Below, piece by piece: positions 34,524-36,564 of a stretch of DNA of 64,000 nucleotides; positions within the stretch are counted from its first letter, which is position 1, and each line of letters opens with the position of its first letter. The position numbers and the translations under genes were made by a program. This DNA is from Verrucomicrobiota bacterium (GTDB lineage: Bacteria; Verrucomicrobiota; Verrucomicrobiia; Chthoniobacterales; SZAS-18), in the NCBI GenBank assembly GCA_025353105.1, contig JANXRG010000033.1:29349-93348 (forward strand), written 5' to 3'. Below the pieces are notes generated by a model. That model did not search any database. It was not told the origin of the DNA and was given only the letters and a program-made list of their open reading frames with translations.

Positions 34524-35543
34524 ATGGAAGCGGCCGATTGGGTAACCCTTAACGACCAGGATCTTCTCGAGCGCCGCATCTCCAAGCTCGGCCTGTATCT
34601 CGACGGCTCAACTCTCGAGCCGCTCATTCGCCAGCTTTATGAGGAGCTCTCGGCGCACGGGCTCGCGTTTCATCCGCCCTGCCACCTCGGCGATGAGTGG
34701 TTCGTGCCGGTCGGCCTCCCGGCGATTTTCGTGCCGTTTTTTCTCGCGCACGACCGCCTGCGCACGCTCGAGCGGACGCTGATGCTCGAAGTCGAGGGCG
34801 GCACGCCGGAATCGTTCATGCAACTCATGCGGCACGAGACGGCGCACGCCTATGCCTACGCCTTCCAACTCCCGCGGAAGAAAAAATGGCAACAGACCTT
34901 CGGGCAAACCTCGCGGGAGGAGACGCCGCAGTTCTACCGGCCGCGCCCGTTCAGCCGCAGCTACGTGATGCATCTCGACGATTGGTACGCGCAGAGCCAC
35001 CCCGACGAAGACTTCGCGGAGACCTTTGCGGTGTGGCTCACGCCGGGTCTCGAATGGCGCAAGCGCTACGCTGGCTGGAAGGCGTTGCATAAACTCGAAT
35101 ACGTCGATGCCCTGATGCGCTCGCTCGCCGGCCGGCCGCCGGTTCATGCCCCGGAGTATCGCGTGGCCGAGTACGACTGCCTGAACCTCAAGCTCAAGAC
35201 GTACTACGCACGCAAACGAAAGCAGTATGAAGATTCCTATCCGGATTTCTACGACGCCGACCTGCGGCAGCTTTTTCCCGCCGCGGCCGACGGGCCGGAG
35301 CGAATCAAGGCCGGCACGTACTTGCGTGGGCGCCGGCGGCGGTTGATGAACACGGTGTGCCAATGGACAAACGAGAAGAGGTTTCGCGTGAACAAACTTC
35401 TTTCGCGGCTCATCGAACGGTCCGACCAGCTCGGGCTTCATGTGCTCAGGGACGATCCGCAGCAGGACATCGGAGTGACGACTTTCATCACGACTCTGGT
35501 GATGAACAATCTCTTCACGGGCAAGTTCAAGCGGACAAAATAG
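34524..35543 (+). CDS. Putative zinc-binding metallopeptidase, paired with an ATP-grasp ligase
   Basis: A 339-residue cytoplasmic-looking protein. QLMRHETAHAYAYAF contains HExxH (His104, Glu105, His108), and HPDEDFAETFAVWL supplies a plausible third ligand (Glu166), a gluzincin-like arrangement. It resembles the putative zinc-binding metallopeptidase family (PF15887-like) but lacks the family's zinc ribbon. The C-terminal half is basic and helical. The ATP-grasp gene starts one base after its stop, so they are co-translated. The substrate is unknown. Confidence 0.8.
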   Translation: MEAADWVTLNDQDLLERRISKLGLYLDGSTLEPLIRQLYEELSAHGLAFHPPCHLGDEWFVPVGLPAIFVPFFLAHDRLRTLERTLMLEVEGGTPESFMQLMRHETAHAYAYAFQLPRKKKWQQTFGQTSREETPQFYRPRPFSRSYVMHLDDWYAQSHPDEDFAETFAVWLTPGLEWRKRYAGWKALHKLEYVDALMRSLAGRPPVHAPEYRVAEYDCLNLKLKTYYARKRKQYEDSYPDFYDADLRQLFPAAADGPERIKAGTYLRGRRRRLMNTVCQWTNEKRFRVNKLLSRLIERSDQLGLHVLRDDPQQDIGVTTFITTLVMNNLFTGKFKRTK

Positions 35544-35544
35544 C

Positions 35545-36564
35545 GTGAAAAAGAAGCCCAAAATCCTCGCGCTCTTCGACGCCGTCGCGCCCACGACGCT
35601 CGACCAGGACCTGAGCGCGGAGATGAAGACGGAGGATTGGAAAACCGAGCGGAACGTCCTCGCGGCGCTCGGCAAGCTTGGCTGCGTGGCGGAACATCTC
35701 GCGATTTTCGACGACCTCGATTTGCTGCGGCAGAAACTCGCCAGCTTCGCGCCCGACGTGCTGTTCAACCTCGCCGACCAATTCAAAAACAATCGCGGGT
35801 TCGACCAGAACATCGTTTCGTTTCTCGAGATGCAGGGCGTGCCCTTCACCGGCTGCGGCTCGACCGGCCTCACGCTGTGCAAACACAAGGGCATCTCGAA
35901 AAAAATTCTCGGTTACCACCGCATCCGGGTGCCGGACTTCGTCACCATCCCGCGCGGCGGGCGCATCGCGCGACCCAAGCGCCTGAAGTTCCCCATCCTC
36001 GTGAAGCCGCTCAAGGAGGAGGCGTCGCTCGGCATTTCGCAGGCGTCGTTCGTCGAGACCGACGAGCAGTTCCGCGAGCGCGTTGCCTTCATCCACGAGA
36101 AGTACGACAGCGACGTGATCGCCGAGGAATACATCGAGGGCCGCGAGCTCTATGTCAGCGTGATGGGCAACCTGCGCCTGAGCGTGTTCCCGATTCGCGA
36201 GCTGGTCTTCCGCGAAGTGCCGCCCGACGAACCGAAGATTGCCACGTATCGCGCGAAATGGGACGAGGAATACCGCAAGCGCTGGGGCTTGCAGAATCAA
36301 TTCGCCGCGGGGCTCGACCCGGCGCTCGTGACGCGCATCGAGCTGACGTGCAAGCGCATCTACCGGTTGCTGACGATCGACGGCTATGCGCGCATCGACC
36401 TGCGCGTGACAGCGGCGAACGAGGTGTATTTCATCGAGGCGAACCCGAACCCGATGCTCGCGGAGGACGAGGATTTTGCGATGTCAGCGGCCAAGGCGGG
36501 TCTGGCGTATCCGCAATTGATCGAGCGAATCATCCGACAGGGGATGAAGACGGTGAGAGACTGA
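35545..36564 (+). CDS. ATP-grasp ligase, D-alanine-D-alanine-ligase-like
   Basis: A 339-residue protein with a GTG start at 35545, separated from the metallopeptidase stop by one base. Ddl-like N-lobe PFTGCGSTGLTLCKHKGISK, ATP-binding lysine in FPILVKPLKEEASLGISQ, VIAEEYIEGRELYVSVMG, and the metal-binding C-lobe YARIDLRV with YFIEANPNPMLAED. It ligates an amino acid or peptide carboxylate by an acyl-phosphate route. It is a Ddl-fold relative, and housekeeping Ddl would not be expected beside a peptidase, so a dedicated peptide-forming or modifying system is possible (inference). Confidence 0.85.
   Translation: MKKKPKILALFDAVAPTTLDQDLSAEMKTEDWKTERNVLAALGKLGCVAEHLAIFDDLDLLRQKLASFAPDVLFNLADQFKNNRGFDQNIVSFLEMQGVPFTGCGSTGLTLCKHKGISKKILGYHRIRVPDFVTIPRGGRIARPKRLKFPILVKPLKEEASLGISQASFVETDEQFRERVAFIHEKYDSDVIAEEYIEGRELYVSVMGNLRLSVFPIRELVFREVPPDEPKIATYRAKWDEEYRKRWGLQNQFAAGLDPALVTRIELTCKRIYRLLTIDGYARIDLRVTAANEVYFIEANPNPMLAEDEDFAMSAAKAGLAYPQLIERIIRQGMKTVRD

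Follow-up and report, generated by a model that had tools for sequence, protein, structure and literature searches.

Two adjacent genes lie on the plus strand at positions 34524 to 36564 of the window, which is the whole stretch of 64,000 nucleotides analysed, from a Verrucomicrobiota genome of 3.72 Mb. The first gene (34524..35543, plus strand) starts with ATG and encodes a putative HExxH zinc peptidase of 339 amino acids, assigned to a divergent subfamily of Peptidase_Mx (PF15887) without a zinc ribbon. The last 17 residues of this protein, TTLVMNNLFTGKFKRTK (35490..35540, plus strand), form a C-terminal tail that is nearly invariant in homologues. The second gene (35545..36564, plus strand) starts with GTG and encodes a Ddl-like ATP-grasp ligase, also of 339 amino acids, in which the ATP/Mg and catalytic residues are kept and the residues for D-Ala recognition are replaced. 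According to the ORF coordinates a lone base (35544) separates the two genes, so that the TAG of the peptidase and the GTG of the ligase are exactly 1 base apart.

A sequence-only reading of this DNA had described the two open reading frames, their 1-base spacing and their families. The frames and the spacing are present as described, and the family calls are upheld by matches to PF15887 and PF07478. No sigma-70-like site was found near the pair in a promoter scan, a scan that says little. The DUF885 gene downstream was considered as a partner and rejected, as it is missing from the table of shared neighbours across pair loci.

The peptidase and its C-terminal tail

The PF15887 match of the peptidase scores 28.4 bits (cut-off 27) and covers only positions 89-164 of the 236 in the model, which is the catalytic core. 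Each of the 24 diverse family members in alignment A3 also matches this model, with E-values up to 0.01. The zinc motif RHExxHA...YAQxHPxEDFxETFA is invariant in these members down to 34% identity, including R103, H104, E105, H108, Y155, Q157, H159, P160, E162, D163 and E166. The window protein has RHETAH at residues 103-108 and YAQSHPDEDFAETFA at 155-169, so both the HExxH motif and the downstream acidic zinc-ligand region (HPxEDFxETFA) are present. The match to PF15890 is weak and the M15 families give no match. The N-terminal CxxC zinc ribbon of five PF15887 relatives from the same order is absent from the window peptidase; the ribbon is a feature of these relatives and not a requirement of the Pfam family. 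There is no hydrophobic N-terminal segment and the peptidase is therefore probably cytosolic. The predicted structural model is poor, with a mean pLDDT of 57. Longer ORFs of about 460-560 amino acids with peptidase motifs such as RHExGHA and YAQKHPDEDWAETFA, and without a ligase, occur in contigs filed as viral (L192-L198).

Among 69 class-level homologues the tail TTLVMNYLFTGKFKRTK hardly varies, down to its last residue, while its codons vary synonymously; it is unchanged at loci where the ligase lies 100-270 nt away. The synonymous variation and the loci with a distant ligase rule out that the tail is a translation-start element of the ligase. The motif is weak or absent in the distant pair peptidases L144-L146, L148 and L149, and in more distant members only a [T/R]G[K/R]F-like remnant, if anything, is left at this position. 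It is also absent from the zinc-ribbon PF15887 proteins and from the phage relatives, neither of which has a ligase beside it. The tail may have no more than a structural role.

The ligase compared with D-Ala-D-Ala ligases

The ligase matches PF07478 (Dala_Dala_lig_C) with an E-value of 1.4e-30, and Ddl structures are the best fold matches of its predicted model (pLDDT 73). Among the matches listed, the NCBIfam Ddl models all score far below their curated cut-offs, the best with 126.9 bits against 243. The host has its own Ddl on another contig (C121). This enzyme shares 28% identity with the pair ligase, falls among the true Ddl enzymes and retains the recognition residues missing from the pair ligase. 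Phylogenetic analysis places the codirectional pair ligases, including one from a contig filed as viral (L191), in one group with 100/100 support and the Ddl controls in a separate group with 100/99 support.

Residue roles (ATP, Mg, transition state and D-Ala recognition) were assigned after E. coli DdlB. The equivalents of DdlB Lys97, Lys144, Glu187, Lys215, Arg255, Asp257, Glu270 and Asn272 are kept in the codirectional clade; in a second clade, found at tail-to-tail loci, Lys144 is replaced by Gln. Lost from the pair ligase are the HGxxGE motif, Ser150, Tyr216 (replaced by Trp) and Gly276, and an alignment with the Ddl controls places Glu and Asp in the window ligase at Ser281 and Leu282 of DdlB. 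Neither of the Ddl signatures HGxxGE[DN]G... and RxD...ExN[STP]xP[GA], written after the PROSITE patterns, occurs in any pair ligase. The first was found in 3/3 Ddl controls and the second only in the control from K. pneumoniae. To judge from these residues the ligase looks active: those that are kept support an ATP-dependent acyl-phosphate chemistry, and those that are changed support a substrate other than D-Ala-D-Ala.

Distribution and arrangement of the pair

Many Verrucomicrobia from soil and water carry the peptidase and the ligase side by side. A contig scan with one genome per species gave 80 ligase loci, every one named as a Verrucomicrobia group, and the peptidase is next to the ligase in almost all of these 80 independent contigs, lying directly upstream in almost all that extend far enough. 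The exceptions are L026 and L081, where there is room on the contig and yet no peptidase match. In a set of 197 genomes from the host order, the peptidase occurs in 43, the ligase in 45 and the two together in 39 (Fisher p about 3e-30; p for co-occurrence about 1e-28 to 1e-30). The sequence-only reading, which had likened the genes to pairs that make and trim a peptide or modify a protein tail, had noted that its proposal would fall if the pair were not conserved; the pair is strongly conserved, and the census rules out that the genes are chance neighbours. The remaining 10 of the 49 carriers in the order are single-gene cases, all at contig ends as judged from contig extents or from coordinates at the first bases. 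In G328, a genome that had seemed unlinked, the two genes share a contig and the ligase starts about 0.9 kb past the peptidase.

In a phylum sample of 289 genomes both genes were found in 20/22 carriers, a count in which the tail-to-tail clade is pooled with ligases that reach 40% identity or more, the pooling having been chosen after the data were seen. One carrier has the peptidase with no ligase detected (G124) and one the ligase with no peptidase detected (G056). In another genome (G098) the two genes are on separate contigs. These three genomes count against the functional reading preferred below. The sampled mates of the host's own genus and family are without both genes, and therefore loss, transfer or mis-binning has occurred.

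No peptidase match was found in the plasmids scanned, and a single-sequence scan of a viral collection gave no match. An alignment scan of the same collection found phage-type contigs with the peptidase domain only, and one contig with the pair (L191:4968-7087), where it lies beside a GH31 gene and the peptidase is only 39% identical.

Spacing was compared in 73 codirectional loci. The gap is at most 20 nt in 57 of them, including 6 with overlapping genes, and 108-270 nt in 15. Long gaps contain palindromic repeats of several unrelated sequences (L027, L030, L031, L046, L047, L053, L061, L062, L068, L072 and L082), which look as if elements had been inserted repeatedly just past the peptidase stop. 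A second, broken copy of the peptidase gene was seen about 5 kb from an intact pair (G272:C1:208309-209108, in L140). In L120, L125, L126, L127 and L151 the two genes are tail-to-tail, and the tree places these ligases in a separate clade adjoining the ligases of a lysine-aminomutase-like cluster. One peptidase family thus pairs with two clades of ligases, each in its own geometry; this speaks for a functional bond and for a linkage that is more than operon inertia. The sequence-only reading had called the genes co-translated. This is plausible for the pair in the window, with its gap of 1 base and the short gaps at most codirectional loci, but does not hold in general because other lineages have intergenic repeat elements or the tail-to-tail order.

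A conserved third gene or a precursor peptide, suggested as something to look for, was not found at the pair loci. When ORFs within about 6 kb were clustered, no family beyond the pair and its shadow ORFs occurred in more than 18 loci. Short ORFs (at least 15 codons) within 300 nt did not recur broadly, and those in the window match no others.

Possible function and known systems

The reading we prefer, tentatively and at a little less than an even chance, is that the pair is a self-contained two-protein module for ligation and hydrolysis in the cytosol, of a make-and-cut or make-and-control type. The ATP-grasp enzyme would activate a carboxylate with ATP and then join it to an amine. The ligase would in this way add a residue, and the zinc peptidase would either cut the bond made by the ligase or itself be controlled by the ligation. 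This is the simplest reading because an intact zinc peptidase is almost always near the ligase and there is no other partner. As no third gene accompanies the pair, the target is most likely the end of a protein or peptide encoded elsewhere, or the conserved tail of the peptidase itself. The catalytic motifs are intact, the Ddl recognition residues are lost, the linkage exists in two arrangements without a third gene, and the tail is conserved; from these sequence features we infer a peptide-type chemistry, a cytosolic location and opposing or regulatory roles of the two proteins.

The main rival is a pathway for a small peptide-like metabolite, in which the ligase would couple a pair of amino or diamino acids, the product then being released, recycled or detoxified by the peptidase. 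Such a pairing of ligase and peptidase can be found in dipeptide antibiotic pathways. Outside the pair clades, the nearest ligases adjoin lysine-aminomutase-like, acetyltransferase, diaminobutyrate or diaminopropionate genes, a setting that fits small-molecule synthesis as well. In the window ligase, a basic substrate could be favoured by the acidic residues that the alignment places at the second-substrate site. However, near the pair no gene for a precursor enzyme, an exporter or resistance was found to be conserved, and the ligases of such clusters fall outside the 100/100 clade of codirectional pair ligases. We regard this pathway as rather unlikely.

More doubtful still is a specific version of the module reading, namely that the ligase modifies the C-terminal tail of the peptidase and thereby switches the peptidase on or off. 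The absence of a third gene would agree with this, as would a tail that is near-invariant under free synonymous change, is kept when the ligase is distant and is missing from the zinc-ribbon and phage relatives that have no ligase beside them. On the other hand, conservation of a helix and tail can have structural reasons, and the tail motif is missing from several of the distant pair peptidases, so tail modification is not a universal rule. If this version were true, writer and target would be the whole system, and the modification of a protein tail would be of a kind for which no description was found in the literature searched.

That the ligase is the ordinary or a spare D-Ala-D-Ala ligase of the cell, with the peptidase as a chance neighbour, is very improbable and already contradicted: D-Ala-D-Ala ligase models are its best family models and Ddl structures its best folds, but the Ddl models listed stay far below their curated cut-offs, a separate Ddl exists on C121, the pair ligases lie outside the Ddl group without both Ddl signatures, and the co-occurrence with the peptidase is overwhelming. 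This was the other outcome that would have undone the sequence-only reading. Genes labelled as D-alanine--D-alanine ligase by similarity can be something else.

The module, if it is one, is found across Verrucomicrobiota without other fixed parts, which makes it small and directly testable. To our knowledge, bacteria offer few known examples of a ligase and a protease that write and erase peptide bonds as a pair. The sequence-only reading knew of no described system with exactly this pair, and a literature search of partial coverage, with the 2009 amidoligase survey outside it, found no description either.

Zinc-ribbon proteins with the PF15887 core are homologous to the pair peptidase by profile and have the same HExxH and HPxED zinc motifs, but they differ in the N-terminal zinc ribbon, the lack of the tail and the lack of an ATP-grasp neighbour (five loci in the order). 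Close relatives of the ligase occur in the phylum in a cluster of tandem Ddl-like ligases, one of the two being sister to the tail-to-tail pair ligases; this cluster differs in having two ligases, no zinc peptidase and another gene set. The tandem arrangement is conserved in Verrucomicrobiota (L119, L121, L122, L123, L124, L132, L134, L135, L136 and L137), mostly with a GNAT acetyltransferase and a lysine-2,3-aminomutase-like radical SAM protein, and in L132 one ligase is fused to a GNAT domain. Distant Ddl-like ligases were seen on plasmids near genes for diaminobutyrate or diaminopropionate synthesis (L108, L204). On an Agrobacterium plasmid (L202:3047-4780) a Ddl-like ligase lies beside a C39-like peptidase with a transglutaminase gene near.

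The VanG/VanXY and VanA/VanX clusters for glycopeptide resistance resemble the pair in that a Ddl-like ligase gene is directly followed by a peptidase gene (L200). The VanX and VanXY peptidases are of the M15 type. VanG/VanXY differs from the pair in its true Ddl-type recognition motif, in the vanT gene next in the cluster and in having no Peptidase_Mx. The Anbu operon (Anbu, ATP-grasp, alpha-E and transglutaminase) has been proposed as a peptide-synthesis system with a peptidase (PMC5666114). It differs by the proteasome-like Anbu peptidase and by extra conserved genes, whereas the pair loci show no conserved extra gene. RimK/RimB of Pseudomonas (RimABK) is a protein-tail modification system in which an ATP-grasp ligase is co-encoded with a protease, the two acting on the ribosomal protein RpsF (PMC12239564; PMC11957791). 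RimB is a retropepsin-like aspartic protease and not an HExxH enzyme, and RimA is a third partner. Unlike RimK, the ligase of the pair is of the Ddl-like kind and its listed matches include no RimK model, and in the profile search the pair peptidase matches zinc-peptidase models only. By the sequence features compared, the pair is a member neither of RimK/RimB nor of the Van systems nor of Ddl.
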